NCBI RefSeq assembly: GCF_958295425.1
Contig: NC_081141.1
Coordinates: 22,184,884-22,248,883, forward strand
Length of the DNA: 64,000 bases
Reading direction: 5' to 3'
DNA from: Solea solea
Lineage: Eukaryota; Chordata; Actinopteri; Pleuronectiformes; Soleidae
This document shows, piece after piece, positions 18,166 through 59,505 of the stretch; the first letter of the stretch is position 1; the number at the start of each line of letters is the position of its first letter. Position numbers and translations under genes: made by a program. The notes beneath the pieces were generated by a model. It saw only the letters and a list, made by a program, of their open reading frames with translations, was not told where the DNA came from and made no database searches.

Positions 18166-21100
18166 TGTGGGTTGTGGTGTCAGTTATTTAACAGGCTGGG
18201 GAGAGATTCTGAAGCACGATGTGAGTGAGTGGGGGTCCGTGTACCTGCACCCTGATTCCCTAAAACTCAGCGCTCTACTGCCCCCAAATGGTGGCGTGTC
18301 TTGACTCCTCGGTGCCCCCCCCCACACACACACACACACATCTGATCAATGTACAAAGACGAGCAGGAATGTGCTGTTTGCGTATGTGTGTGTGCGTGTG
18401 TGTGTGTTTATGTGCTCGTGGTAACTTCGTAGGCGAGGGAGTGACTTTGAGGGAATCTGTTGATTCAGGCACTGAAATCTTTTTCGCTCGGCCGTGAGAT
18501 CGTGGCAGCATCTGAAGATTGTGCGCCTTTAATGAAAGCATGACCAGCATTCTTTCTTGGACGGCAAATTGCATGTGTGTGTGTGTGTGTAGCTGCCCAT
18601 ACACTGCAGGGCCGCTCTCTTTCTCTCTCAGGTCTAATTTAATAGGAGCGTACTGTGACTGATGCATTAGGTCTGGTCTCTAATCTCTCTTTCTCACTCT
18701 GTTCCTCTCTCTCTCTCTCTCTGATGAGCTATGATATAAAAGGCTGGTTTTTACTCTTGTTACATTCAGAAATGTTGCTGCAGTTGGTGCACCAGGATAA
18801 AATAGAATAGGATAGAATGCCCTTTATTGTCATTATACAGTGTACAACGAGATTGGAGAGCTTCACACAGTTTTTAAATAACAACAGTTAAAAGAAAGTT
18901 CAAATATGCTTTATATACACACACACAGGATAAATATTTAAATATATACGATGTCAAAAAATAGGATCCATTTCCACACAAGAGTCTGTGGAATCACAAT
19001 TACGACTGTTAACGTACAATAAACACACACACGCACGCAATTCAAAGTCATTAGGTCACAAAGGGAGATTTTGATTCCTTTGTTGTCGTTTGTAACACAC
19101 ACTAATGTCTCAACACAGTTTAATCAACAGCTATAATAAGCTTTACACAACCATGGCAGTGGACGTGGATGCCAAGCACTCCCTGTATTGTCTAGTTATC
19201 TCCGTCACCATAATAATATACCTGTTAAGGGTTTGTAAGTGTCGTTTCACTTGCGTCTTGGCTGTATAAGCAGTATTATCTAACTCTGTGTGGGAAAACG
19301 GTCTTTATCTCTTCTCTGGCTGCTCTTTGGTTTATTACACTCGAGATTTATTACACTTACAGAGCGGCACTGCTGATTGATCAAGACTTTGAACGAGCGG
19401 CTGCCTCTTTTTCTATTTTTTATTAGGCTGGATTGTAACTAGCTGGTAGCATTGTGCGGTTCACATCAAAGCCTTCACATTGTAAATTTAATTGTTTAAT
19501 TGTACTTTTTGTTATGAGCGCGACGTCCAACACAAGAATCAAACCGAACAGTGCCGAACTGTAGATCAGTTAAAAAGACTTGCGTTTTTTTTAGCAAGGA
19601 AATGTCTAAAATGTCAATATTTAACAGAGGAGTCTGGTGTATTTAGCGACAGCACTGCTGAGAGCCGGCGATCGTTAGCCGAATCACAACCCGTTCAGCC
19701 GTATTTCAGGTCAGTGACTATGTCAGACAGAATCTGCGCTCCGGTCACGCAGGAAGTTCTGAACGATTCAGTGAACGAATCATTTTAATTCACTGATTCT
19801 AATGATTCAGCACTAGTGCTAGAACAAATGTATGTGGAAAAGTACAATTAGTCTCTTAGTCTTAGTGTTAGGTTAGCTCTTAAATGATCAGACATCAAGA
19901 CACCAAGTAACTGGCAATTGATAGTTACCTCATCCAAATCCAAACTCAAGATTCTCAATTTTACAAGTGCTGTGTTTAGGTTTTGCAACTGGAACTTTGC
20001 AGACGTCACCAGCTGTCCATCACACTGGTCTCCCCCTCATGTGCTGTACTTTATAGCCTGAACATCATTTACAAAATTTGCATCATGTGCTTTTGTAGAA
20101 GACTTGAAACTAGAAATTAACAACATCCTCAGGAGAGAATTAAACACATTTTCCATAGACCATCATTTAAATTAACCTATTTTTGCAACCAGTTGAGTCG
20201 CCCCCCCCGGTGGTTAATTTATACTTACTTCAAGCGTATCTTAATCCAGTATACCCTACATGTGCTCAGTCACCCGCCTAATAAGACTGTCTTGCAGTCC
20301 TCCTGACCATTTCTTTTGTGTGTGTCCTCTCCAGGTCAGTGTCAAGTGGTCACCCCACAGTGTCGTATCCAGAAGTGCACGACTGACTTTGTCTCCCTGA
20401 CCACCCACCTGTCACCGGCCGTGGATGGCTTTCACACTGAATTTTGCAAGGCTCTACGCGCGTACTCCGCCTGCACCCAGAGGACAGCCAAGTCCTGCCG
20501 GGGCAATCTGGTCTTTCACTCGGCCGTGTTGGGCATCTCAGACCTCATGACCCAGAGGAACTGCTCCAGAGATGGACCCACGTCTTCCACACACCCCGAG
20601 GTCCAGCCTGAGCCCTGCAACTACCACAGTCGCACCCAGCACGCGCACACACACGCGCACTCACACGCGCATGCACACGCCCACAGCAACAGCCACAGCC
20701 ACAGCCACAGCCACAGCCACTCTCAGCCTGGGTACCTGTTCTGCGGGCTGTTTGGGGACCCACACCTGAGGACGTTTAAGGACAATTTCCAGACTTGTAA
20801 GGTGGAAGGAGCCTGGCCTCTCATTGATAATGACTATCTGTCGGTGCAGGTCACTAACGTTCCTGTGGTGCCAGGCTCCAGTGCGACGGCAACCAATAAG
20901 GTAAGAGAAGAACTGGTGCAAAGATAAGTGGGCTTTTTGAGTCCAATTTGCTGTCATTAAGACTGTAGGAGTTACCTAAGTGAGAGCAGCTGCATGTGTG
21001 CGCGTGTGTGTGTGCTTGTTTGTGTACCCTTGTGAGGACCGTGACCATAGCCATAGGAAACAAGGACATTTTGGTCCTCACTTTCTGTCAAACCTCAGAA

Positions 21101-24100
21101 CGACTGTTCATGGTTAAAGGCCTGGTTTAAGGGTTAGAGTAAGGTTCATATTAGGGTTCGATTAAGAGTTGAGCTAGACGTTTAGCTGTGATGGTTGAGG
21201 TAAGGGAATGCATTATGTCTGTGAGTGGCCTCACCAAGATGTTCAGCTAAGAAGCCGTACAAACATTACAGCTGAGTGATTAATTATGCGATGTAATTAG
21301 CAAATCACAATGGCTATAATTTAGGCTTAGGGTTTTTAATTTAGGATACATGTTATGCAGCTTATCAGACCCAGACGTGATACTTTACTGTTAAGGGTTT
21401 CAGTTATGGTAATTCAGATAATTGCAGTATCAGAAATAATGCAATGAGGTATTTTTGCCCGAATCTTTCAGCCGTAACAAATGTGTGTGTGTGTGTGAGA
21501 GTGATTGTATTTATATCTTTGTGAGGTCCACAAAACATACAACCCTTTTTTTGTGAGGACATTTTGACCTTGTGGGGACATTTTGTCAAATTTATAGTAG
21601 GGTTAAGACCTGGTTTTAGGGTTAGGGTTAGAAATGGGTTTAGGTTTATTGCATTATGTCTATGATGTGTCATGTGCGTCTGTGTGTGTTTGAGAGGCCA
21701 CCATTGATTGGAATGACATAAAAGTTACAGTGTCCCGGGGAAAGAAATGGTATCAACAGATTCGGGAAAACACCCTGACTCTCTCTCTCTCTCTCTGTGC
21801 TCTGCTGTATTTTTCTTTTCTTTTTTTTCCTCCCCGTCTTTCTTTTGCTCAGAGTGTTTTTCACTCCCTCCTGACTCACAGATGTGAGGCAAAGAGTCAA
21901 AGATCTTGTGACTGTCTCCTCTGACTGAATGTTGCAAGTGTTGGAAAACCTATATTTGGCTAATGGCTGCATTTTGCATGACCTTTAATACCACGGAGCG
22001 AGAGGTGTGAATGGACTCACTGTTTACTAATGCATGTAGTATGTGTGTGTGTGTGTGTGAGTCACTGTGCGATAAATGTGTGTCCTTATCTGTGTATATG
22101 ACAACCATTTTCAGCATGACACTTATGGACACACTCTGCCCCAAGGATGTCGAGCCACACAAGCGGATCTTTGTGGTGTTAAAGAAGCAATGTTGATGTT
22201 TCCCCCGATGGTCTACCCTCTCTAGTTTAGTCGATAGCTTTAATTATTAAAACACATACACACCCATGCATACACTTAGTCATTCACTCACACACACATG
22301 CATGTATATTAAGCAAATAGTTGGGCTGCTATGCTGTGGAGCTGAAGGTCTAACCTTGTGTCAGAGGTGGGGCAAGTTATTAGTCATGATTATTAGAGAC
22401 ACACACACACACACACACACACACACATTAACAGTCCTCCAGGCTTAATGGCCTGCCAGGCCTCATTCCTCACAGCTGTCATGTGAACAAAGCAGCCATT
22501 CACCGGAACTATGATGTTAGTGCTAACCGTAATGCTCACACCACACCCTGTATCCACCACTGCTTCCACTCACCCACTGGCGCCCTGCGTGTTTTCATGC
22601 GTGTATGTATGTACGTGTGTGTGTGAGCACACATGTGTCAGCATGTTTGCATAGCTGTGTCAAATTACAACTTGTTAAAAATCCATTTAGTGATTTCTCA
22701 AATGTAGTGTGATGAGAGTCAATAACCTGTGTAATAGGTGCGCGTTTATATACGCGCGTGTGTGTGTGTGTGAGAGGGGGTGGCTCTTTTACTATGGGCT
22801 GTAACCACGGCTTCTTTTAGTTATGAATTAATCTGACGAAAATGACTTAACATACATTAACTTGGGACTAATCTTCACCTTTTTTAAAAATGTTCAATAT
22901 CTGTTAATCTGTTGCTCAGTTTAACGTCATTGTGGGACTGCACCTACTGTACTGAACTCTACTGTACAGTGAGTGCACATCGAGCCCAAAGTTATGGCTC
23001 CGAGGTCTTATTTTGTTGGACGGAGCAGATTAAAATCGCTCAGTTTACACAGTGAATATCGGGATGACGCGAGCAAATATTTCAAACAATTAACTGACAA
23101 TCACACTAGTTCCTTTCACTTCCCGCCGACTAGTTCTTCAAGTTGTGCGAGCTCCATGTGTTTCTTGGGTGAATGTTGTTTTTGTTCTGTTTGCCTGTGT
23201 TTTGTCTTTGTAGCAGTTGTAAACCATTATTCTCTCGAACTCTTTGTTGTTGTTATAATTGTATTATTATACAACAGAAACAATGTTACATCATTTATAT
23301 GCTGCGTCCTTCATCTGAAAACAGGCTCTGTCAAGCAATACTATCAGCCGTGACTGAGGGAGCGTTTCTTTGCATACAGTGGCGGCTCATCTCATGAAAC
23401 TGCCGAATAACAGTTTCCAAAACCTTTTGTGGGCACTTCTTTGTGTTGTCTGTCATACTTGACATAAAACAAATCACTTCCTGTGTGCAGTGTAGGAATG
23501 TCGACATGGGCGACATGAGAGCTAATCACGGCTATACTGAGAAACACAGGCAGAGTCACGTGGAGCTGAAAATCAGCTTTGTGCAAACTTATCTGTCAAT
23601 GGTTTAAAAGTGACAGACTTTTGTTGATTTTTAAAAGTTATGCAGTTTCTAGTCCCTATAACCAATGTCTCGCTCTCATATGCACTACAGATCACCATCA
23701 TCTTCAAGCCCTATGAGGGCTGCACAGACCAGAGGGTCTACCAGGCCGTCACCGACAACCTGCCCGCTGCGTTTGACGACGGCACCGTGAGCAGCGGCGA
23801 CCCCATCCACACTTTATCCGACATAGACGGCGCGACCAGGAGGATGCGAGCTCTGTGGATCTCTGAGCGCACGCCGGGGAACCACGTCGAGCTGCACGCT
23901 GGCTACATCGGCGTGACCGTAATTGTCCGCCAACTGGGACGCTACCTGACCCTGGCGGTGCGGATCCCGGAGGAGCTGGCTCAGGCCTACGACGCCACCC
24001 AAGACCTGCAGCTGTGTCTGAACGGCTGCCCCAGCGGAGAACGCATCGACCGAGCGGGGCATCTTCCCCTGCCTCTCTCGCCTCCTGCTCTCGGCCTCCA

Positions 24101-24449
24101 GCTTCAGCAGCAGCGTCGGCCCAGCTTCTCCTCACAGACACAAGCGTACCCCTACGGCACTGCACAGGTTTTCAGCGTGGAAGGGGCGAAGCAACTCTGC
24201 AGGGAGAAGCTGGAGGTGCAGGACATTTACTTCCTCTCCTGCGTGTTCGATCTCTTGACCACCGGAGATGCGAATTTCACGGTGGCGGCGTACAGCGCCC
24301 AGAAGGACATGGAGAGTCTCCACCCACACCAGGACAGGTGGAGGATCTACCCCAGCGGTTCTGCCACCTCCATTTTACACTCTGATTTTCAGCCTGTCCA
24401 CCGGTTACCCCTCCTTCTACTGTGCGCTCTGAGTTTGGCGTTGATGTGA
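14390..24449 (+). CDS. rgmb: Repulsive guidance molecule B (RGMb/DRAGON), BMP co-receptor
   Basis: Three coding exons: 14390-14507, 20335-20900 and 23691-24449, with consensus GT-AG introns of phase 1 and phase 0, giving 480 residues. RGMb is a GPI-anchored cell-surface protein that binds BMP ligands and neogenin and enhances BMP signalling. Exon 1 gives a hydrophobic signal peptide ([12 protein letters not shown]). Exon 2 starts the mature chain with [14 protein letters not shown], nearly identical to human RGMB and unlike RGMA. It also carries the partial von Willebrand D domain with the autocleavage motif GDPH (residues 180-183). Exon 3 has [13 protein letters not shown] and ends in a hydrophobic GPI-signal tail ([14 protein letters not shown]). 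Oddities: residues 142-168 alternate His with Ala, Ser or Thr (13 His), absent from human. Exon 3 also has a short insert before the ELHAGYIG block. Start chosen as the ATG that gives a signal peptide in frame. Confidence 0.97.
17430..17570. repeat. Dispersed repeat, copy 2 of family A
   Basis: Carries TGTGATTGACAGCTGGTATT, TTCAATAGGAAA and CTTATGGGTGAC in the same order as the relics at 3233-3390. Located in rgmb intron 1. Confidence 0.5.
18125..18163. repeat. (GT)n microsatellite in rgmb intron 1
   Basis: About 19 GT units; a (CA)n tract lies at 18323-18341. Confidence 0.95.
19505..19800. repeat. Dispersed repeat, copy 2 of family B
   Basis: Matches 3612-3740 over its first 100 bp. It continues with AACGATTCAGTGAACGAATC and TTCACTGATTCTAATGATTC, which look like self-complementary ends of a small transposon. 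The enclosed 98-codon frame is not supported as a gene. Confidence 0.5.
20640..20720 (+). repeat. rgmb: In-frame histidine-rich repeat in rgmb exon 2
   Basis: Two imperfect in-frame arrays, first CACGCG/CACACG-type and then five consecutive CACAGC hexamers, encode His-Ala/Thr/Ser and then His-Ser dipeptides. The tract sits between the cysteine-rich N-terminal domain and the GDPH partial vWD domain. Reading frame is intact on both sides. Confidence 0.9.
20901..23690 (+). other. rgmb intron 2, no internal gene seen
   Basis: A 2.8-kb intron with donor AAG|GTAAGA and acceptor CACTACAG. It holds two copies of the GT-flanked telomere-like repeat (21020-21250, 21480-21690), a (CA)n at about 22399-22428 and a family C repeat copy (23297-23565). 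Confidence 0.75.
23297..23565. repeat. Dispersed repeat, copy 2 of family C
   Basis: Carries the same ordered blocks as 8941-9236, including GGCTCTGTCAAGCAATACTA and GACTGAGGGAGCGTTT. Confidence 0.6.
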
Positions 24450-27283: not shown

Positions 27284-28960
27284 TCACCACTTAATAACTG
27301 CGTACGTCGTCATCAGAGTGTTGAAGACCATGATCTTCATGAGGAGCAGCCTCATCGACAGGACGACCACCGTGTTCGTCCACATGACGACATCTGCAGG
27401 TCAAACCACACAGACTGAAGCAGAAGGAACTATTTCTGTGCAACAGGAGTGACAATTTATTAACAGGGGGGAAAAAATTAAGATGTACCGTCTATCTCTT
27501 TCTCTTCAAAGCAAACCTTGCCTTCATGACCTGGAAATATAAAAAAAATAAAGAAACATTGATGAAATGAGCTGTGAAATCTAATATATGTGTGTGTAAA
27601 ATACTGTATATTATACAGTTATTATGCAATAGCCCTTAATTTCTCTTTATCACAATGTGTGCACCTTCTATAGGTGGAGAGTGTACGGAGTTGTGGTAAA
27701 AACAGCAACAAAAAAAAAGGAAAATGAGGGTTGAAGGTAAAAATTACACTGGTAGTTTTTGTCAATGACGAGGCTACTGCTTATTCACTGTTATTTAGCT
27801 AACGTTAATATTATAGCTATACAAATTAAGTGGTGATTATACAGTAATACTATGTTGTTTCCAATTTAATATCCTGGAAATAACATGGTAACTGTGTGAA
27901 AATGAGATTATTTTAGTCCCATTGTTTTTCCCACATAATTAAATGGTGATTACATAGGAAAAAGATGGTGTTATGATAATAAAACTTCTCTATTACAAAA
28001 TGGTATATACAAAATCGCATTTTGTCCTACCTGACGAAGTGATGTGGTGTCGCCTGTTGACCTTTGGACGTCGTCTCTTAGTCACAGAGCAGCTGTACGA
28101 AGGCCAGTCCCTGGTCACCACCGTGATTATGGACACGGGGCCGTGTCCGTGGCCGCGGCGCCTCCTGCTGAGAGCCACGCTGTTCGGCGCAGTCGTCACG
28201 AGGTCCTCTGACGGTGACCTCCAGCTGACCTCCAGGTGACCCCGCCGGAAGTCGCTGACCATACAAACCAGCAGAGTCCAGCCGAGCCTTTCCCCCGTCA
28301 AGTGGACCGGGGGACCCAGCGACGCCAGGACGTGACCTTTCACCCCTCCTGATCAGAGGAAGGTGATGGATTGTGCACATCACTGAACGTTAATGTTTCA
28401 AATCTTAATATACAATACCAGAACATTATAGTCCATGAGCACATGGAGAAGAATATATTCGTTTTAATGACTTAGAAGTATAAAACATTAACAGCATTAA
28501 ACAAAATCCTCTTTGTATTTATGTTACAATCCCTAACAAACCCTTAATAGAGATTACTACTTTGTAGATTAGCTCATATCGAACTCTGGGGCAGCTGTGC
28601 ATTGTCCCTATTAATTATAAAAATCTAAATTAATAATTTACACAGTAGTTACAGGAGAACAGTTCCAGTAAACGTCAGAAAACATGAACACTTGCTCATA
28701 CACTTGCACACAGAGAACCTGGACTCCCACATCTGTACCAGACGTTTAATCTTGTTCAGACTGTAACCTGACATTCACACAGTGAATTATTCCAAGCACC
28801 AGGTGTCAAAAACCTAGACGCTTTCTTTCCCAATCAACATTTTCAGTGTTAGAAACAACAAATCACAAGATCGGGATGACGTCTTAGAGATTTTAAAACT
28901 CTTACCGGTCCACAGATAGATAATAGGAAGGTAGAATAGACTCTTGGACGCCTCAGTCAT
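27284..28960 (-). CDS. ptcra: Pre-T-cell-receptor alpha-like chain (one Ig C1 domain, TCR-alpha-type transmembrane helix)
   Basis: Four minus-strand exons, all joined in phase 1: 28960-28906, 28348-28031, 27530-27489 and 27393-27284, giving 174 residues. Exon 1 is a leader with a hydrophobic core (LFYLPIIYLW) and donor G|GTAAGA. Exon 2 is a C1-type Ig domain: Cys47 in TLLVCMVSDF, Trp61 in EVSWR and Cys105 in YSCSV; its start, ASLGPPVHL, resembles the pTalpha segment SLAPPIML. Exon 3 is a 14-residue connecting peptide with one cysteine (HEGKVCFEEKEID), placed as the TCR interchain cysteine. Exon 4 is a helix, RLLLMKIMVFNTLMT, with Arg153 and Lys158 spaced as in TCR-alpha and pTalpha, where they contact CD3; it ends after a few residues. 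No V domain or J segment adjoins. In mammals pTalpha pairs with TCR-beta in thymocytes. The alternative is a displaced TCR-alpha constant-like gene. The gene symbol is provisional. Confidence 0.7.
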
Positions 28961-31284: not shown

Positions 31285-34200
31285 ATGGTCTCGGCGAGGC
31301 TGTTGGCACTGTCCCTGTTTCACGTGTCTCTGGTTGCGTGTCAGAGTTCACAGCAGGCGTCAAACATTACAGGAGGACAACCTATGGGTACAGATCATCT
31401 GTCTTTCCCATGGAGTCGTTTTCGCCTGCCTAGGTACCCTTCACTCTAGTCTAGTTTTACTCCCATATATGCAGGAAATGTACAGAAAACTGATTTAAAA
31501 AGGCTCCAAACATTGTTTTGTGTTATGTTTGTGTTACTGTAGGTACATCATCCCTCTTCACTATCGCCTCCTCCTGCACCCCAACCTCACAAGTCTCAGT
31601 TTCACTGGTTCAGTGCAGATCCAGATCGATGTCCAGAACAATACGAACTGGGTTGTATTACACAGCAAGGGTCTGAACATCACCAGAGCCACGATACTGA
31701 ACCAGAACCTCGCTCATCTCTCTGACCAGGTAGTGTATCCTGAACGTCTTCCTGTTTCACACTCACAGAGCATTAAATGACTTCTTCCCTTTTTAGGTTC
31801 TTCCTGTTCTTCACAACCCGTCACATGAGCAGATTGGCATTTTCTCTCCCAGAGTGCTCAGCAGTGGGCAAAAGTACTTCCTGTATATTGAGTTTGGGGC
31901 AGACCTGGTAGACGGCTTCCATGGGTTTTACATGAGCACGTACAGAACCACCACAGGGGAGACCAGGTAGGACTTCTGATGGATTCTTCCGCAGAGTTTG
32001 GTAAAATACCCAACGCAGTACAATGCACAGACAATCTGCTTATGTCTCTTTCTCAGAACCTTAGCTTCGACTCATTTTGAGCCGACAAGTGCTCGGACGG
32101 CGTTCCCTTGTTTTGACGAGCCAATCTTCAAAGCCAACTTCTCTGTACGGATTAGGAGAAGCCCAGAGTTTATTGCTCTCTCCAATATGCCCATAGTGAG
32201 TGTTACATAGTCTCTGTGCTGTACACAACATATGAAGATGGACGTATTCTTCCAGTTTGCAAAATTAAGCCTCAATATTTGCATTTTGACAACCAAAAAT
32301 TCACCTGCAAACAGGCAAATCCCGGATGATACCAGCTGTCAATCACACTGGGGTCCACCCATATGTGCTGCTCTTTAGCGACTGTTTCCCAGATTATGGG
32401 AACATCATCCATCTTCTACCACGTTATCCTCCACATCCATCCATCCATCCATCTTCTACCACGTTATTCTCCACATACATCCATCCATCCACTACCACTT
32501 TATCCTCCACATCCATCCATCTTCTACCACTTTATCCTCCACATCCATGCATCCATCTACTACCACTTTACCCTCTACAGCCATGCATCCATCCATCCAT
32601 CTACTACCACTTTACCCTCCACATCCATGCATCCATCCATCCATCTTCTACCACTTTATCCTCCACATCCATGCATCCATCCATCTTCTACCACTTTATC
32701 CTCCACATCCATCCATGCATCCATCCATCTACTACCACTTTATCCTCCACATCCATCCATCCATCCATCCATCCATCTACTACCACATCCATGCATCCAT
32801 CCATCTACTACCACTTTATCCTCCACATCCATGCATCCATGCATCCATCCATCCATCCATCTTCTACCACTTTATCCTCCACATCCATCTTTTACCACTT
32901 TATGATATTTGAGAATATCATCATTTCCAGGTTCCAAACTAATTTTCTGACATTTTACGGCCCAAACAAGTTTTTGATTAATCAGAAAATGTTTAGTGTT
33001 GAAGTAGAAGCTCATTCTCTCATAGACTTCTATTCAAACTAAATTATTATCGCCTCCTGGTGTCTAACTAGTACCTCCATTAGACTTCCTTGGCTTCACT
33101 TTTCAAACCAGGAGACCACGTCCATATGTGTACGACATGATCCATCGTATATGTTTTAAACGTGCTTGGAAGATTTTGTTCCAGTGACATACATTTGCAA
33201 TTCAGGTGAACTCGGTCCAGATAAACGCTGACCTGCATGAGGACAGGTTTGCTGTGAGTGTGAAGATGAGCACTTACCTGGTAGCATTTATCATCTGTGA
33301 CTTCAAATCTGTCACTGCATCCACATCCTCTGGAGTGAAGGTACAGTAACGCTTTGCTTTTTCATCTCAGCCCTCAGGTCACATTTTATGTCCTCACTCA
33401 TTTCTTGTGCATTTATAGGTTTCCATCTATGCCTCCCCTGAGAAATGGTCTCAGACCCACTATGCCCTGGAGGTTGCTGTCAAAATGCTGGACTTTTACG
33501 AGGACTACTTCAACATCCGTTATCCTTTACCCAAACAAGGTAACATTTCTCTTGTTTCCTTGTCTTTACCCTGTCACTTTTTATTACCTGACCTGTTTTT
33601 TTTCTTCTTCTCAGACCTGGTAGCCATCCCAGATTTTCAGTCTGGTGCGATGGAGAACTGGGGTCTGACCACCTACCGAGAGACAAGTCTTCTCTTTGAC
33701 CCTGCCTCTTCCTCGCTGTCTGACAAACTCTGGGTTACTATGGTGATCGGCCACGAGCTCGCTCATCAGGTGAGAGCATCAACACAATAGTGGCACACAG
33801 AAGCAAGTGCCTGTTTATTTACAGCAGCTCAAATGTTTTATTGTATTTATTGTTTTCTGATGTTATTTGTTGTTGTTTATGTGGTTATTCATATGCATGG
33901 GTGGTTTGAATTTTCCTGTCATGATTATCATGATTATAACAATTGTGATTCATGATGTAACTGTAAGATTTGTAAATAGGGATGAGCCAATACGATACTC
34001 GGTATCGGTATTGGTCCACTACTGGTCACAATCACTGGATCAGATATCAGACAGATAAAAATCCTATATGTATGCAGTAAAATACCCGAATAAAAGTCGC
34101 CAACAGCATTTTAGCTGAGTAATGTTGTGGACTGTTTCTTTCTTCGTTATGGGAGACGAATATTTGTTACAGTATTGGAGAATTATTTTCTTGAAACAGC

Positions 34201-36378
34201 TTGAAATTCATGAGCATGAAAAAGTAGTATCGTGTCTTCCCTTTCCTTAAGTGTAAACAGGCAGAGTATTTTTGTGTAACTTCATTTGGTTCAAATCGTA
34301 ATAAATGCTCAATAAAAACCTGCACTTTTGCCTGCAGTGGTTTGGTAACTTGGTGACAATGGTGTGGTGGAACGATCTCTGGCTGAATGAAGGATTTGCC
34401 AAATACATGGAGTACATCTCAGTGGAAGCCACGTACCCTGACCTCGCAGTGGTAAGAGCGTTATTATTATTATTATTACTATGAGGATTCACTGATGGAT
34501 AAATGAAGAGGGACAGGTTTTAAAATGATGTTCTGTGCACAATCTTGCAGGAGGAATATCTTCTGAATGCCTGCTTTGTAGCAATGAGCCATGATTCGCT
34601 GAATTCCTCTCGACCGATATCCAGTGCGGCAGAGAACCCCACTCAGATCGAAGAGATGTTCGACGAAATCTCCTATGAGAAAGTATGTTTTCCGTCGCGT
34701 ACGCGTGTTTCACTCTACGAGATTATGAATCTGGACAGTCACTGAGAAATTATAAGAACTTCTCCTAATTTTTCATTGGTCTGTTTAAAACAGAACCACT
34801 TGTGATTGTGCATCTTAATTTTTGACATCAGTAATATGACTTGTATACTGTATATGTAACTTAAAATGAAATCAGTATGTTCTCTTTCTTCCACCAGGGG
34901 GCCTGTGTCCTTCACATGCTGCGACACTTTCTGACCACTGATGTGTTCCAGAGCGGGATAGTGCGATACTTACGCAAATACAGCTACAAAAACGCACTCA
35001 ACCAGGACCTTTGGGACAGTCTGGCCAATGTATGACCACAAATGACATTTTCCTGTTATTTGTTTTTGTTTCAGTAAATCAATTTGCAGCCTTCAAGCTA
35101 TAGTACTTAACTTTTAATTTTAATTTCAAACAGTTGTCAAATTAGTTCAATGCTGCCCAAAGTCTATCAGCTCCACATGATGATGTTCTGAGTATAGCTG
35201 TACATAGGAAGTAATTTGCTTTAAATCAGAACAGTGGCAGCAGCAACATTGCATTAGTGAAGCGAGACACCTGCTTACAGGTTGATATGTGACTGACGAT
35301 GCCACAAAAACTCTCAGAAGTTGATGTAACTTGTAACAAAACAAAAAAGGAAGACCACACTGCTTAAGTGTGAGGTCTGCAAAACCTTCCATGCATTTCA
35401 ACAGGAATGAATTCCGATTGTGTTTTGCAGACATGCTCTGAAGAGGACTTTATGTCAGGAAAACACTGTTACAGCAGCAGCCAGGCCACCAAGAATGCAG
35501 TGAGTTAACAGTTCAACAGAAACTCTCTGGTCTCTCTCCTAAAATGTCCATGTCCATTTCCCGTTCACCTGTGTTGATATCCAGCTGTTTCCTGCAGTAC
35601 CTGTTTGCAGGGGAACATCTGGACCTCACAGCCATGATGAACACTTGGACTCTGCAGAAAGGCATCCCTCTGGTAACAGTCACAAGAAGCGGTTCTCGTC
35701 TACTGCTGAGACAGCACAGGTTCCTGAGGACAGTCCTGCCCTCTGACCCTCAGTGGTCCAAGTTACAGGAGGGGTGAGCGTTGGCCTACAGCTGTGCAAC
35801 CTTTGCTAGAATTGTCATGATTTCAAATAACTCTCAGACATTATCTGGAACTTATAGTTCTGGTCTGACTTTTGCTCCTGGTGTGTCACGTGTCAAATCC
35901 TGTGCATCATTTTTGATTTTCATATGATAGTAGTGATAAAATAACCGATTGTTTTTGTACAGTTTCTTGTGGCACATCCCTCTGACATACAAGACTGACA
36001 CCTCCAGCACAATTCACAGACACCTGATGACAACATACACAGGTAAAACCATGAGAGAATGTTAAATGCAGCTCTTATCTTCATGTTTTCCTCCTGCATT
36101 TAATTGTTTTCCGTCCCTTTATTTTGCTTTTTTGTGTGACTTTTAGACAGTATACCCATAGGAGAGGAGGTCAGCTGGGTGAAGGTAAACACTGACATGA
36201 CCGGCTATTATGTGGTCCACTATGAGGATGGTGGCTGGGATGACATCACCAAACTCCTGAGGGAGAACCACACGGCTCTGAGCTACAAAGACAGGACTGA
36301 CTTGATACACAGCGCTTTTCAGTTGGTCTCGTAAGCATCAGATGTGTGACTCAATTGTGGATATATATATATATGTGC

Positions 36379-36438
<60 letters not shown>

Positions 36439-38542
36439 ATATATATATATATATATTCTTGTTTGTCTCTAAAGTGCAGGTCACCTGCCGATCGATAAAG
36501 CCTTAGACCTGATTGGTTATGTGCAAAAGGAGACACACACAGTCCCTCTCCTCCAAGGACTGGGATATCTGGAGACCTTTTACTGGATGATTGAGCACAG
36601 GAATGAGCAGGAGTTGACACAAGTCCTGGTGGTGAGAAGACACAGACACAGTGTGATATTTAAGTCTGTGTCAGCACGAAACTGAGGTCTGTGTGCTTCG
36701 GTGCAGATGTACATCCTGCGATTTTCCCGCGCCATCATCGACCAGCAGACGTGGAGCGACGACGGCTCTGTGTCAGAGCGGCGGCTGAGGTCGCAGGTCC
36801 TCTCTCTGGCTTGTCATCTGGACGACCCTCCCTGTCTCCAAAGGGCCCGTCAGAGCTTCAAGGACTGGCTCGAGTCCAACGGAACTCTCAAGTATTTACA
36901 TTTCAAACACATTGTTATCAGCCAACATCCACTGGTTTAACTCACATAAACAACAGCTCTCTGATCTCTGACATGTTTGTGCTTTGTGCTTGTGTTTGCT
37001 GTAGTTTACCCACGGATGTTGCAGAGACCGTGTATGCAGTAGGAGCTCAGGAAGACCATGGCTGGGCTTCACTCCTGCACACATACAAAACCTCGCTCTC
37101 TGAAGCACAGAAAAACAAAATCCTTTTCGCCTTGACCTGCAGCAGAGACATCAGCAAGCTACAATTGTAAGTATTCCCTCTGCTACCTTTTTCCACAAAG
37201 ATAATGTTGCCACCCTGTGGCTCTCTTGGGGTACTGCTGCCAACACTGTACCATTTTTATTATTGGTCAATATAACAGAAATGAAAAAGCAACTTCAGGA
37301 AGACAGTAATAGATACATATACTATGTCATAAATGTATTATTTTATCTTTTAAGTCAGGAGCTTGTATGTGTGCATGTGTTTTTGTTGCAGACTGCTGGA
37401 GCTAGGTCTGGAGGGGAAGGTGATTCGAACGCAGGATCTGTCTCATGTCATCCTCATGGTGTCCAGAAACCCACGGGGACAACACTTGGCCTGGAACTTT
37501 GTCAAAAACAACTGGGACACACTGGTTAAAAAGTTAGTAGAATAAATATGTACATAATACATTACCTGATATACAAACCAAGTCTTAAACACAGTTTGAT
37601 ACAAATGCTGTGTGCAAGTTGACCTCTTTGTGGGTTTTGTGCATTCTAATACAGAGTTCCCACAGGTCAGTGAAATCGTAGACTAGTAGACTAGGCCTAA
37701 GCAGAATAAATAACTACTAGCGGTGTTGTGGACACGGTCCACTGTCTCTCTCCGCCGTTGACGTGAGATTCTGTGCAGAACAATGAGCGAGTAAAGTTGA
37801 GCAAGACAGAGCAAAATATGTGATGCCTGAAAAATAAAAATTCCAAGATTTCTGTCTCACCAAAGAAAATTACAAAGACTGACTTTAACCAAGATCCCAA
37901 GGACAATCACTTGTCCAGGTGAAGTTGTGTCAGCACATTCTGTCCTTGAATTTTAGGGAATTGGTCCTGGAAAGTCCTTGAATTTCATGTCAACTAAGGT
38001 GTGAGAACCCTGTTATAACAACTGGAACAGTTTTTTCCCTATTCATGTGAGTCAAGTATCATTAGTGTGTGTTTGCTCATGCTTGTCCTCACTGTTGTGT
38101 CTTTCTGACCTGCAGGCTCCAGTTGGCCTCATCTTGTATTAGACACATCCTCATCGGCACAACCAGACAGTTTTCCTCTGCGGAGGAGCTCACTGATGTG
38201 AGTATACTCCTCAATCTTCAATTTGTCTTTATTCTACAAAGAAATGTCTAATGATATCTAAGGCTTGATCATAATTGTTTCCATTTCTTAAAAATATTTG
38301 GAGATTGAACCAGGAAAAATACATCTGAGAAACCAAAGGTCACTTTTCTTGTGTACATTTGTGTAAATGTGTGTTTGTGTGTGTTTGACCCGCAGGTACA
38401 GCTTTTCTTTGAATCCATCGAAGAACAGGCGTCTCAGCTGAGAGTGACTCAGCTCGTCCTCGACATTGTGCAGAAAAACGTTCGCTGGATGCAGAGGAAC
38501 CTGGAGACTCTGAGGAACTGGCTAAATGAGCAAGTGAAGTGA
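31285..38542 (+). CDS. erap2: Endoplasmic reticulum aminopeptidase 2 (M1 zinc aminopeptidase)
   Basis: Twenty coding exons: 31285-31433, 31543-31729, 31797-31966, 32057-32195, 33206-33340, 33419-33539, 33615-33769, 34338-34451, 34551-34682, 34898-35029, 35431-35499, 35598-35773, 35963-36042, 36147-36330, 36475-36631, 36707-36891, 37005-37166, 37392-37532, 38116-38197, 38396-38542. All boundaries are GT-AG and frames close to 938 residues (human ERAP1 941). The enzyme trims N-termini of peptides in the ER lumen for MHC class I. A signal peptide ([14 protein letters not shown]) is followed by FPWSRFRLP. The substrate motif GAMEN is at 311-315, the zinc site HELAH at 347-351 with Glu370, and the catalytic Tyr at 432 (SYEKGA). 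Wording such as [20 protein letters not shown] and ELGLEGKVI is nearer to ERAP2 than ERAP1 from memory. Exon 11 encodes the ERAP-specific two-cysteine loop missing in lnpep. No defects seen. Confidence 0.94.
32240..33140 (+). repeat. Repeat block in erap2 intron 4 with CCAT-based minisatellite
   Basis: 32436-32900 is an array of CATCCATCCATC words separated by TTCTACCACTTTATCCTCCA or CTACTACCACTTTATCC, about 14 imperfect units of 30-45 bp. It is derived from the same tail as the family D repeat. The flanks include family E sequence: CCAGCTGTCAATCACACTGG and CATATGTGCTG, also found near 20000-20050. Long open frames through the array (up to 238 codons) are repeat artefacts inside an intron. 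Confidence 0.8.
36361..36457. repeat. (AT)n microsatellite in erap2 intron 14
   Basis: Two long AT/TA runs split by GTGCGT and GTGTGTGTG, occupying most of the 144-bp intron between exons 14 and 15. Confidence 0.95.
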
Positions 38543-46100: not shown

Positions 46101-49100
46101 GCTCCATAGAGAAAAGGAGACTTGCAAAGTTCTGCTTTAAGAGTGACTTGAATGTCATTCCTGAATAATTGACATCTATACTATGATTTTTTTTTTTTGT
46201 GCCTGAAGAAAAGAAATGTTTCAAAGCTTTTTGCTTTGGTCATCTTTTTCAGTAGTTGTCAACTGTTCGATCCTCTCTTCCAGGTGGGTGATGGGGAGGC
46301 ACATGATGTGACTCTGCTGGAATACAAACCCAGGCAGCAGTTAGCCTTTAAATCAGCTGCAGAGCTGAAGCCGGGCCAGCTCTGCGTTCTGACCCTGGAC
46401 TACTCTGCCAGCCTCTCACACACTTACGATGGTTTCTACAACAGCTCGTACACGGATAAAGATGGAAACAAAAGGTACGCTTGACTAAACATCTCTGCTG
46501 TGAGTATTTTCACCACTGACTCAAAGCAGTTGCTGTAAGATCTTTTAGCACAATCGTCCTCATGTACCTGTTGTCACTAGGGTCCTGGCTGCAACCCAGT
46601 TTGAACCTCTGTCAGCCAGGAAGGCCTTCCCTTGCTTCGACGAGCCTGCTTTCAAAGCCACCTTTCTGATTAAAATCAACAGGAAAGCAAACTACATGAC
46701 TCTTTCTAACATGCCCAAGGTACTGTAATAATACTGAATCAAAGAAATGAAATGTATGTGCTCAGTGTCCCTATCTCAGGACAGATATTTAAAATGCTTA
46801 ATGTGCAGTAGAACAGCATTTGCAGTCTCCCTCTCTCTCTGTATAACGTCTCTCTTTGTCCTGAAGAAGCTGTGAGTCGTTCCTGTGACCGCTGTCATTT
46901 TAAAAGCTTAGATTGAGAAGGATTTTAAGAAGAATGAGCACAGTTGAGTGAAAGATGCATGCGTTTCATTTCAGGCCAAATCCACGCCACTTTCAGGAGG
47001 CCTCGTGCAAGACGAGTTTGAAAAGACCTCTGTCAACATGAGCACCTACCTGGTGGCGTTCATTGTTGCTAATTTCTCCCCGGTCAGCAAAAATGTCTCA
47101 AAAACTCAAGTAAGTCTGACACAGACGTAACTCTGTGATGATCTGATGATGATGATAATATAATATAGGTTTTATATTTAGTATTCAGCGATTGTTTGAC
47201 GCCTGCTTTGCTTCAGGTGTCGGTGTATTCAGTGCCGGAGAAGGAACAGCACACAGAATACGCTCTGGAGACGGCCTCCAAACTGCTGGAGTTCTACAAT
47301 AATTTCTTTGAAATAGACTACCCCCTCAAAAAACTAGGTGAGTACAGTAGTACTAGGTGTCATATCTTAGCGAGGACACCTCATAGAAAATAATGCATTC
47401 CCTTGCCCCTTACTCGAACCTCAACCATCACAACCAGGTGCCTAAACTAAATCTTATTCTAACCTTAAGCCTAGGAACCAGGTCTTAACCCTGAAAAAGC
47501 GCTTTAAAGTTGTGGGTCCCAGACAAAATGTCCTCACAAAGATATAAATACAAGTACACAAACACACAGAGTTAATACAATATGTACTATATGCACATGC
47601 TTGTTTTGGCCCCTCTAGGGTTGTGAACTGTTCACATTAGAATCAATAAGGTAAAGTTCCTTGAGATTTAAGTCATGAACAAAGTTCAAACACCTCAATT
47701 TGACCCACCTGAATAAACAAGTGTGCACTGAACTGAGATGTCAAATATTTCTCCATTACACTAAGTTTTTTTTTCATAGATTTAATGCTTTAAAGTTTAG
47801 GTCTCTTTTATTCAATTGATATTTTTTTATAATAGTTGGTTTTAAGAAGTTGCTGACTGATGAAGTTCTTTCTCTCAAAGTGTCTCTTGTAACAGACGGT
47901 AAAAAAATGTAAATGTGTTACATTCTATGACGCCATGAAATGTGTTTTTTGTGTGTTCTGTCACGTTAGCCGGTCTTCTTATTTGTCTATATCTATGCAT
48001 ATTAATGCTCGTTTGCACTACACGAATCTGTACAGACACAAAAACAGAAACCATGTTAGGAGACAAAGCAGCTCACAATTCTCTGTGACACATGAAGCTT
48101 CTCTCTTTCTGTCTCATTAGGAGTTTTGCTCATTCTCTTTGCTCAGATGCACATGTGGTTTGTACAAATGTACAAACCACATGTTGGGGACCTTTGTTTT
48201 TTTTTTTACTCACCCAATATGCTCCGTTTCCCTTTCGCCAGATTTGGTAGCCATCCCAGACTTCCTGGCAGGTGCCATGGAGAACTGGGGGCTCATCACT
48301 TTCCGAGAGACCACCCTGCTGGTGGGCAAACAGTCGTCGCCCCTGGAGAAACAAGTGGTTGCGTCCGTCATAGCGCACGAGCTTGCCCATCAGGTAGCTT
48401 TTGTCCTCCTTTTGTGTTTGTGAAAGGAGCAGTGAGTGTGGTTTTAGCGCTAGCTCATGATCTTGTATCTCTCACCTGTTGTGTTTCAGTGGTTTGGAAA
48501 CCTGGTAACGATGAGATGGTGGAACGACCTGTGGCTCAATGAAGGCTTTGCCACATACATGCAGTACACGTCCCTGCAGACAGTGTATCCCCAGCTGGAC
48601 ATTGTACGCCGTAGCATCCGTCTCATGCATTACTTGTCGCGTACTTTGGAGCAGATTAAAACGTCCTCTCCGCTGTGTACATGCGCAGTTCATTTCTTTT
48701 GTTTGTTTGCAGGGTAACTTGTTCCTGGCAGTGCGTTTCAGAGCGTTGGACAAAGACGCACTTAACTCATCCCATGCTGTGTCAACAGAGGTGAACGCAG
48801 CAGAGCAGGTGGAAGAAATGTTTGACTCCGTCTCATATGAAAAGGTGAGGGGGGGGTGACACCGGAGGAATTGTTGTTTTAATCACCTTATCAAACTTCC
48901 ATGTCCTCTGGGCGTCACACTGAGCTTCAGGTGTGACCACAGACTCTTCAGGCCTCTCTCTCCCTGTCTTTAGGGTGCGTCTATACTTTTGATGCTGAAT
49001 GCTTCGCTGCCAGGGGATCAACAGTTTAAAAAGGGTATCATTCAATACCTAAACCAGTTCCGTGGTTTAAACACAGACACCAATGACCTCTGGAACAGCC

Positions 49101-51482
49101 TCACACAGGTGTGTTTGTGTGGTCTTCACAGTGCTCTTTAAATCTAACTTTTCTCAACCCCGGTCCTCGACGACCCCTGTCCTCCATGTTTTAGATGTTT
49201 CTCTGCTCCAACACATCTGATTCGATTAGTCAGCTCATCATCAAGCTCTGCAAAAGCCTGACAACACAACCCACTCATTTGAAAACATGCAGGACAGCGG
49301 TCCCCGAGGACCAGGATCTGGGAAAAAAACCTGGTCTCGAGAAATGCCAGTGAACACAGATTTCTCTTCCCATCTTTCAGGTTTCAATGCTGAACCAGAA
49401 TGTGTCAGAGATGATGAGCTCGTGGACTTCACAGAAAGGCTTCCCATTGGTCACTGTGAGCCTCAAGGGCGACCAAGTGACCTTCACCCAAGAGCACTTT
49501 CTACTCACATCTGATAATGCGACACATACGTCCACGTGGGTCGCATTAGCACAAACTGAGATCAACTCACAGATCATAAAAATGCTGTAATCAACCTGTA
49601 ATAACCATGTAATGTGCTCTCTCTCTCTCCAGCTTGTGGAATATTCCACTGACGTACGTAAACGACAGCTGTAGTTCGGCCCCTGAATGCAGACAGGTGT
49701 TTACGCTGAAGACCAAGACAGGTAAAACACTTTGATTCATCTTTTACTTCTCAAGATAAACCAGTGTTGTTGTTGTTGTTATTGTTTTTTTAAACATTCT
49801 ATATGGGGACCCACTTTTTAAAGATGACAAACCATTGTCACCCAATTCATGGGATTTTTATTGCCTTTACCGTAATACCTTATATTATTTTGAATAGGTA
49901 AACCAGACATTTTCAAACGATTGTATTTGATAAATGAATTGTATGCATGCATGTTATGTAAAACATACACATGTTAACAAACAACAAGACATACTATGAT
50001 AAACCAACACATACAAGACAAATGGGCTGAGACACTAAAAGAAAGAAGAAAAAGAATGAATGACAAATAACAGTGATGTCACATTTTAAGCAACATATTT
50101 AAAGTACTGTCTATTGGGAGTGACTTATCAAAATTAATTGTAAATGAACAGAAAAATCTAGTGCAGCATATTTTACCATAGTTTTTTGACCAAATATATT
50201 CTAATATGATTACAGTCAAAAACTTGGGAAATGGATTATCTTAATCCTGACAAGCTGGCTTTTTGTTTTAAGATCCTATGCCATATTATCGGTTATTGGT
50301 TTGCGGCATGCGGACTGCTGTGTGCCCGGGTTAGACTCAAATCTTTAGTCTTGTGTTTTATCGCCGTTTCTCCCCCAGAACAATGTGAGTTTCCTGACCG
50401 TGTGCGCGTGTTTCTCCACGTCTTTGTCATGATTTCAGGCACTCTTAAACTGCCGGGCAGTGTGAAGTGGCTGAAACTGAACTACAGGAACACGGGCTTC
50501 TACGTCGTCAACTACGGAGACGAAGGCTGGGCTGCTCTTAGGGAGGCTTTGTCCAGCAACGTCGGTGTCCTTACAAGTGATGACCGGGCCTCGCTCATAC
50601 ACAACATCTTTGCTCTCTCCAGGTATGAGAGACAAATTCTCCTTTTCCCGTTTTCACTCTTTTCCACCACTTTTCCCCTCACTTGCTTTTGTGTTCAACA
50701 GACTGGGACGCGTGTCCTTCCATCAAGTCCTCAACCATTTATACTACATGACCAATGAAACGGAGACCTCTCCAGTGACGGAGGCCTTGTTGCAGCTTCA
50801 AAACATTTACAGGCTGCTTGACAAGAGACAGGAGGTTGGTCTGGTGGCTCGCATGAAGGTAATAAACACACACGCTCTCCTCATACTCAAATATAATCAT
50901 TATCGTGGTGAACCAAAAGTGAAATAGGCTGTTTTCCTAAGTTCCTGTTGCCCCATATAGTGTTTAAATGATAGTTTATGATAACATTTCTACTGTTTTA
51001 ATGTTTGCGTACTAATCTTTTCTTTTCTTCCTTTCCTATGACAGAATTACATTCTGCGTCAGTTTGGTTCACTGATGGCTAACCAAACGTGGGGAGAAGA
51101 GAACAGCGTGTCTAAACAGGAGCTGCGCTCAGCCCTGCTGGAGACGGCTTGTCGTCTGAGAGAAGAAAACTGCATCAGGCGAGCCAAAGCGCTGTTCAAA
51201 CAGCACGTCGAGTCCAACGGGACGATGCGGTACGTAAAAAACACACAAGGGAAAACCTCCGGGAACAGAGAAGTAACACACGTTCACACGTTTCCCGTTC
51301 CTTTCTGTAGGATACCAGGCGATCTGCAGCGAGTTGTGTTCACCGTGGCTGCGCAGTCAGACGAGGACTGGGTGACTCTGCTCAACATGTACGCCAACAC
51401 CACATATGATGCGGAGAAGCGGAAAATGATACGGGGCCTGGCGTCCACGCAGAACACTCGCCAATTAGTATGGTAAGCTAGT

Positions 51483-58679: not shown

Positions 58680-59505
58680 AAGTTCATGCAGGTCCAGATT
58701 CTTGCTTCATGCAGGTCCAGATTCTTTCTTCACGCAGGTCAAGATTCTTTCTTCATGCAGGTCAAGATTCTTTCTTCACGCAGGTCAAGATTCTTTCTTC
58801 ACGCAGGTCCAGATTCTTTCTTCATGCAGGTCCAGATTCTTTCTTCACGCAGGTCAAGATTCTTTCTTCATGCAGGTCAAGATTCTTTCTTCACGCAGGT
58901 CAAGATTCTTTCTTCATGCAGGTCAATATTCTTTCTTCATGCAGGTCAATATTCTTTCTTCATGCAGGTCAAGATTCTTTCTTCATGCAGGTCAATATTC
59001 TTTCTTCATGCAGGTCAAGATTCTTTCTTCATGCAGGTCAATATTCTTTCTTCATGCAGGTCAATATTCTTTCTTCATGCAGGTCAATATTCTTTCTTCA
59101 TGCAGGTCAAGATTCTTTCTTCATGCAGGTCAATATTCTTTCTTCACGCAGGTCAAGATTCTTTCTTCATGCAGGTCAATATTCTTTCTTCACGCAGGTC
59201 AAGATTCTTTCTTCATGCAGGTCCAGATTCTTTCTTCATGCAGGTCCAGATTCTTTCTTCATGCAGGTCTAGATTCTTTCTTCATGCAGGTCCAGATTCT
59301 TTCTTCATGCAGGTCCAGATTCTTTCTTCATGCAGGTCCAGATTCTTTCTTCATGCAGGTCAAGATTCTGTCTTTACGCAGGTCCTGATTCTTTCTTCAC
59401 GCAGGTCCTGATTCTTTCTTCACGCAGGTCCAGATTCTGTCTTCGTGCAGGTCCAGATTCTGTCTTCGTGCAGGTCCAGATTCTGTCTTCATGCAGATCC
59501 AGACA
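58680..59505. repeat. 24-bp minisatellite, about 34 copies
   Basis: The unit is ATTCTTTCTTCATGCAGGTC followed by AAGA, with CACGCAG for CATGCAG and CCAGA or AATA variants. Because 24 is a multiple of 3 and the unit has no stop in any plus frame, three overlapping open frames of 240-320 codons arise. None has a start context, domain or splice context that supports a gene. Confidence 0.95.

Follow-up and report, generated by a model that had tools for sequence, protein, structure and literature searches.

Analysis of a 64,000-nucleotide stretch of the Solea solea genome (NC_081141.1, positions 22,184,884 to 22,248,883; hereafter the window, with positions counted from its first letter) revealed a four-exon candidate gene on the minus strand, at 28960-27284. 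Its coding sequence of 525 nt, obtained by exon joining, comprises 174 codons and a TGA stop. The encoded protein is ordered as a leader, one C1-set immunoglobulin (Ig) domain, a connecting peptide (CP) with one cysteine and a T-cell receptor (TCR)-alpha-type membrane helix with an R-x4-K motif. Judged from its sequence, the candidate is probably a real member of the TCR-alpha family that does not rearrange, and its most likely role is that of a surrogate TCR-alpha (pre-TCR-alpha, pTalpha) chain. This reading is drawn from the exon plan, the intact frame, the C1 domain, the extra cysteine and the TCR-alpha-type helix, together with the lack in the window of variable (V) and joining (J) segments and of a convincing recombination signal sequence (RSS), and with neighbours that are not those of published fish T-cell receptor (TR) loci.

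Gene structure and coding evidence

The four exons measure 55, 318, 42 and 110 nt, and the three introns between them are all GT-AG and of phase 1. Exon 1 (28906..28960, minus strand, as for all parts of the gene) was assigned by splice sites and frame, and contains the start codon, the putative leader MTEASKSLFYLPIIYLWT and base 1 of the next codon, ending at a phase 1 donor, GTAAGA; the leader has a hydrophobic core whose best 11-residue mean on the Kyte-Doolittle (KD) scale is 1.58. Intron 1 (28349..28905, 557 nt) encloses no minus-strand open frame of at least 60 codons, and there is therefore no V exon between the leader and the Ig exon. Exon 2 (28031..28348), of phase 1 at both ends, encodes the C1-set domain with Cys47, Trp61 between the Ig cysteines, and Cys105. 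Exon 3 (27489..27530) encodes the connecting peptide HEGKVCFEEKEID with Cys131, the only further cysteine of the protein. Exon 4 (27284..27393), supported by frame, splice site and transmembrane (TM) comparisons, encodes the helix SMRLLLMKIMVFNTLMT with Arg153 and Lys158, in which R-x4-K is followed by FN-x2-MT, and then the stop codon; the tail is of 8 residues, counting from the Thr aligned with human pTalpha Thr168.

The joined frame is uninterrupted. The four phase-1-linked minus-strand exons and 174 residues described in the initial annotation proved exact, and the four-exon observation is confirmed as real and correct to the base. The other features it had listed were also recovered, namely a leader and a C1 domain with Cys47, Trp61 and Cys105 (by residue position and Pfam match), a 14-residue connecting peptide with one cysteine (the 42-nt exon 3), and a helix with Arg and Lys five residues apart (RLLLMK, from residue 153) followed by FNTLMT. 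The weaker points of the gene model are the third donor (ACG|GTACAT), which agrees with the consensus at 6 of 9 bases, and the length of intron 3, just 95 nt. Inspection by eye further revealed a donor-like site, GTGAGG, that overlaps the exon 4 stop, with an acceptor-like TTTTCAG about 80 bases further (window 27289-27207, minus strand); splicing at these sites would bring an immediate new stop and the loss of the last residue only.

The Pfam search assigned the candidate to C1-set with an E-value of 2.7e-4 (21.6 bits, the cut-off being 21) and to no other family up to E 10, a range in which the HMMER filters discard most matches above about 0.1. Two profiles, one built from six C1 domains and the other from five helices of TCR-alpha, TCR-delta and pTalpha, were scanned across the window in all six frames, with 30 windows shuffled in two-base blocks as controls. 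Exon 2 ranked first with the C1 profile (18.2 bits; runner-up 8.1; top of the 30 shuffles 9.9) and exon 4 ranked first with the TM profile (12.8 bits; runner-up 8.1). The TM signal alone is marginal, because the best of the 30 shuffles reached 12.4 bits; the better-than-chance case is made by the two first places lying 0.6 kb apart, on the same strand, in the right order and with phase-compatible splice joins.

With a codon model derived from the exons of neighbouring rgmb, the candidate coding sequence scored +41 bits in its own frame, versus -27 and -13 bits in the other two. The score of exon 2 (46.1) was reached by none of 398 overlapping 105-codon stretches that are open in the non-coding flanks (best -5.9). 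In one antisense frame, however, exon 2 scored equally high (48.0), and the strand assignment therefore relies on homology and the splice sites instead of the codon model.

When exons 3 and 4 were compared with the whole PDB, just two chains matched at E-values up to 10, each having a transmembrane segment of TCR-alpha type, and the best match was a TCR-alpha C region; in a comparison with six helices, the human TRAC helix scored highest. The structure prediction of the Ig domain that the initial annotation had proposed was uninformative. The model of the Ig exon, made with no alignment, had seven strands at a pLDDT of 61, and pTalpha (3of6) was absent among the best 50 matches of each fold search with this low-confidence model. 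MHC and antibody domains made up most of those best 50, beside some unrelated beta-sandwiches; Foldseek returned 1612 matches up to E 10, none of them at E 0.001 or better. Relatives of the Ig exon were not found among 9 pattern matches in IMG/VR, nor relatives of the candidate among 64 pattern matches in bacterial and archaeal genomes, both collections being by description without fish genomes.

Concerning rearrangement, the RSS scan of the window detected a single RSS-like site (13/16), within a CA repeat at 22069, and hence no convincing signal in the 64 kb. The J motif FGxGTx[LV]x[VI] was absent from the window, as was any V-like frame by one regular expression, and the J segments with RSS expected ahead of the C exon of TRAC or TRDC were not found in it. 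A rearranging TR locus in the window was thus rejected. A tandem copy in the window was rejected as well, tblastn with the candidate finding its own exons and one match at E 5.

Comparison with pTalpha and other constant domains

The C1 comparison and the tree covered 12 domains, with human and mouse rows only. Like pTalpha, the candidate is V-less, lies outside the TR loci, and is built as a leader, a C1 domain, a connecting peptide with a cysteine and a TM segment with R-x4-K; it also has the central Trp, and 17 residues from the Pro motif to the first Cys. A short A-B segment and a central Trp occurred together in the candidate and pTalpha alone among the 12 domains. The two Ig cysteines and stabilising Trp present in all PTCRA (PMC9614664; this and the papers below are cited for the available parts of their text) are found in the candidate at 47, 105 and 61, along with the single connecting-peptide cysteine and the Arg and Lys five apart. 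As in PTCRA, the candidate is invariant, with a leader and a single C1 domain and no V or rearranging segments within 64 kb by the patterns used. It differs from pTalpha in having no N-glycosylation motif.

The separate Ig, CP and TM exons of the candidate resemble the three C exons of teleost TRAC (PMC5972329), and its 17-residue A-B segment is found in human and mouse TRAC; with TRDC it shares a TM segment with R-x4-K. Unlike TRAC, it has its own leader and the Trp, and neither J nor V. Exons 2-4 contribute 155 residues, compared to 110 in salmon TRAC, which has three exons (PMC8559430). The exon-1 signatures of fish are CLxTD(x)F for TRAC and CLxxxFxP for TRDC (PMC10322711), and the corresponding CMVSDFRRG of the candidate fits neither. 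Regarding genomic context, the TR loci of catfish adjoin SMG7 (TRAD), papilin and an ARID gene (TRB), or lie between AMPH and STARD3NL (TRG) (PMC8656973), whereas the candidate, differing also from teleost TRAD in general, which is flanked by SMG7, adjoins rgmb and an ERAP2-like gene; its neighbours are unlike those of published fish TR loci. Because of these neighbours, the two signatures and the length, the candidate is unlike fish TRAC and TRDC segments as published. A recent copy of TRAC was rejected on the signatures and the length, and on the own leader and the intact exons and phases.

The Ig lambda constant domain has an A-B segment of 22 residues, compared to 17 in the candidate, and an Ig lambda constant gene has no transmembrane exon. 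An Ig light-chain gene was rejected, as exon 4 codes for a TM helix and the PDB matches of exons 3 and 4 were of TCR-alpha type only.

Proposed role and alternative explanations

The initial annotation knew of no established fish orthologue of pTalpha, and papers of 2019-2025 agree in their available text that pTalpha is lacking or not known in fish or in zebrafish (PMC9614664, PMC12529555, PMC6747487, PMC8559430, PMC10464911, PMC11759298). PTCRA is placed in amniotes only, with fish lacking obvious surrogate genes (PMC9614664); it was not found in axolotl, is given as absent in Xenopus and zebrafish, and is favoured as an amniote innovation (PMC12529555), its origin being dated to Amniota (PMC11594159). 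In teleosts or fish, pTalpha is described as lacking or unidentified (PMC6747487, PMC8559430, PMC10464911, PMC11759298). The available part of a review of the teleost thymus mentions pre-TCR expression and names no fish gene (PMC7824517), and that of a single-cell study of medaka leaves the timing of beta-selection unfixed, with no fish PTCRA known (PMC11759298). No report of a fish pTalpha was present among the literature matches listed, preprints and most subscription journals lying outside the coverage. The candidate bears on the way in which fish T cells check a new TCR-beta chain, and its exact exons would make that question directly testable in laboratory fish, if they carry the gene.

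As a surrogate TCR-alpha chain, the protein would use its own leader to enter the endoplasmic reticulum and would pair, through the C1 domain and Cys131, with a TCR-beta chain that has just been rearranged. In keeping with the rule known for TCR-alpha, dimers of CD3 and zeta would be bound by Lys158 and Arg153. The complex, having no alpha V domain, may then signal successful beta rearrangement ahead of TCR-alpha rearrangement. Should the thymus make use of this gene, a checkpoint of T cells that is deemed an amniote invention may be far older.

Several results weigh against this role, in addition to a TM profile score barely above the shuffles. The overall similarity of the Ig domain to pTalpha is low, higher scores being obtained with Ig lambda, MHC II beta, TRBC and Ig kappa; from Cys to Trp the domain has a spacing of 14, the value of Ig, TRBC and TRGC, versus 15 in pTalpha. 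The PTCRA family of Pfam (PF15028; PMC12529555) was not matched up to E 10, C1-set being the sole match. PTCRA is syntenic with CNPY3 in the amniotes examined (PMC9614664), and CNPY3 does not adjoin the candidate, the nearest genes found in the partly annotated 64 kb being rgmb and the ERAP2-like peptidase. In the 2 kb upstream, E-box and RBPJ motifs were not enriched (RBPJ, 0 sites), and the counts of six T-lineage motifs upstream of the candidate were unremarkable. Finally, the tail of 8 residues contrasts with the long tail of pTalpha. Non-eutherian PTCRA tails are, however, shorter, with prolines fewer or none (PMC9614664). In human pTalpha the tailless p.Thr168* is the sole truncation with complete loss of function, while p.Pro175*, with seven intracellular residues, is normal, including surface expression, and two more distal truncations are hypomorphic (PMC12842982). 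The effects of the human tail are thus not simple, since distal truncations are hypomorphic though p.Pro175* is normal; as the candidate keeps eight residues from the same point, its short tail is no bar to function.

A narrower proposal is that the candidate is a true fish PTCRA, sharing a common ancestor with amniote PTCRA, sited between rgmb and erap2 and short-tailed, in which case beta-selection by a pre-TCR would predate the fish-tetrapod split and would have been lost in amphibians. The PTCRA-type reading of the initial annotation held for the exon plan, the Cys and Trp set, the connecting cysteine and R-x4-K, but not for a Pfam PTCRA match or synteny with CNPY3, and support in the tree was 45/41 at the placement of the candidate. 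For these reasons orthology was kept apart from the surrogate-alpha reading, and it is advanced here tentatively, with the balance tipped against it. Either outcome would be informative, pointing to an old checkpoint or to a second, independent surrogate alpha chain from TCR-alpha stock.

Among the alternatives, the candidate might be an orphan of the TCR-alpha family with another job and an origin independent of PTCRA; it might regulate TCR assembly, or act as an invariant partner for TCR-gamma or TCR-beta in lymphocytes that are mature or innate-like. Such an orphan appears unlikely, given that the Trp and the short A-B segment are common to the candidate and pTalpha alone in the 12 rows, and that pTalpha is, to our knowledge, the sole V-less TCR-alpha-like chain described with the leader, C1, CP and TM plan. 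The third donor, with its 6 of 9 consensus bases, would suit a decaying relic, that is, a formerly functional gene or displaced constant gene which is open by chance or recency and unused now; such a relic is improbable in view of four open exons with intact splice sites and phases, a leader, not expected in a displaced TRAC, the coding-type codon score, and a CMVSDFRRG segment and a length of 155 residues that depart from the TRAC and TRDC signatures and from the 110 residues of salmon TRAC (PMC8559430). An unrelated membrane protein with one Ig domain and a convergently TCR-alpha-like helix would account for the generic C1 domain, the TM match near the shuffle limit and a low-confidence model (pLDDT 61) resembling many beta-sandwich chains, none at a Foldseek E of 0.001 or better, and yet is very improbable against a separate 42-nt exon with one cysteine, an R-x4-K motif with FN-x2-MT after it, and a best match in the whole PDB that is a TCR-alpha C region.

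Genomic surroundings

The nearest genes found, rgmb and an ERAP2-like peptidase, were those named as neighbours in the initial annotation, and were identified by RGM domains and a best PDB match to ERAP2, respectively. The rgmb exons (20307..24446, plus strand; RGM_N and RGM_C by Pfam and PDB) lie beyond the 3' end of the candidate on the opposite strand; the four PDB sequences matched by this region are RGMB entries, the best of them also being labelled RGMC. On the other side, a first M1 aminopeptidase gene (33419..37167, plus strand) has an M1 exon at 33.4 kb and an ERAP1_C match at 36.7 kb that is below the Pfam cut-off. A second M1 aminopeptidase gene, of ERAP/LNPEP type (46173..51473, plus strand), has an M1_N match at 46.2 kb just under the cut-off and ERAP1_C exons at 50.2-51.5 kb above it. 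Two ERAP/LNPEP-type aminopeptidase genes therefore stand in tandem beside the candidate, so that genes of the peptide-trimming kind adjoin a TCR-like gene. The presence of rgmb and of a C1/TCR-type gene points to a vertebrate as the source of the window.

Two repeat arrays were also observed. One, a CATCCATC-type array of tandem units of about 32-84 bases, spans about 0.5 kb (window 32406-32903) and lies upstream of the M1 exon in the first aminopeptidase gene. At window 58683-59503, a 23-bp minisatellite with the unit TTCATGCAGGTCAAGATTCTTTC comprises about 36 copies with 94% matches, and three plus-strand frames are open over most of it.
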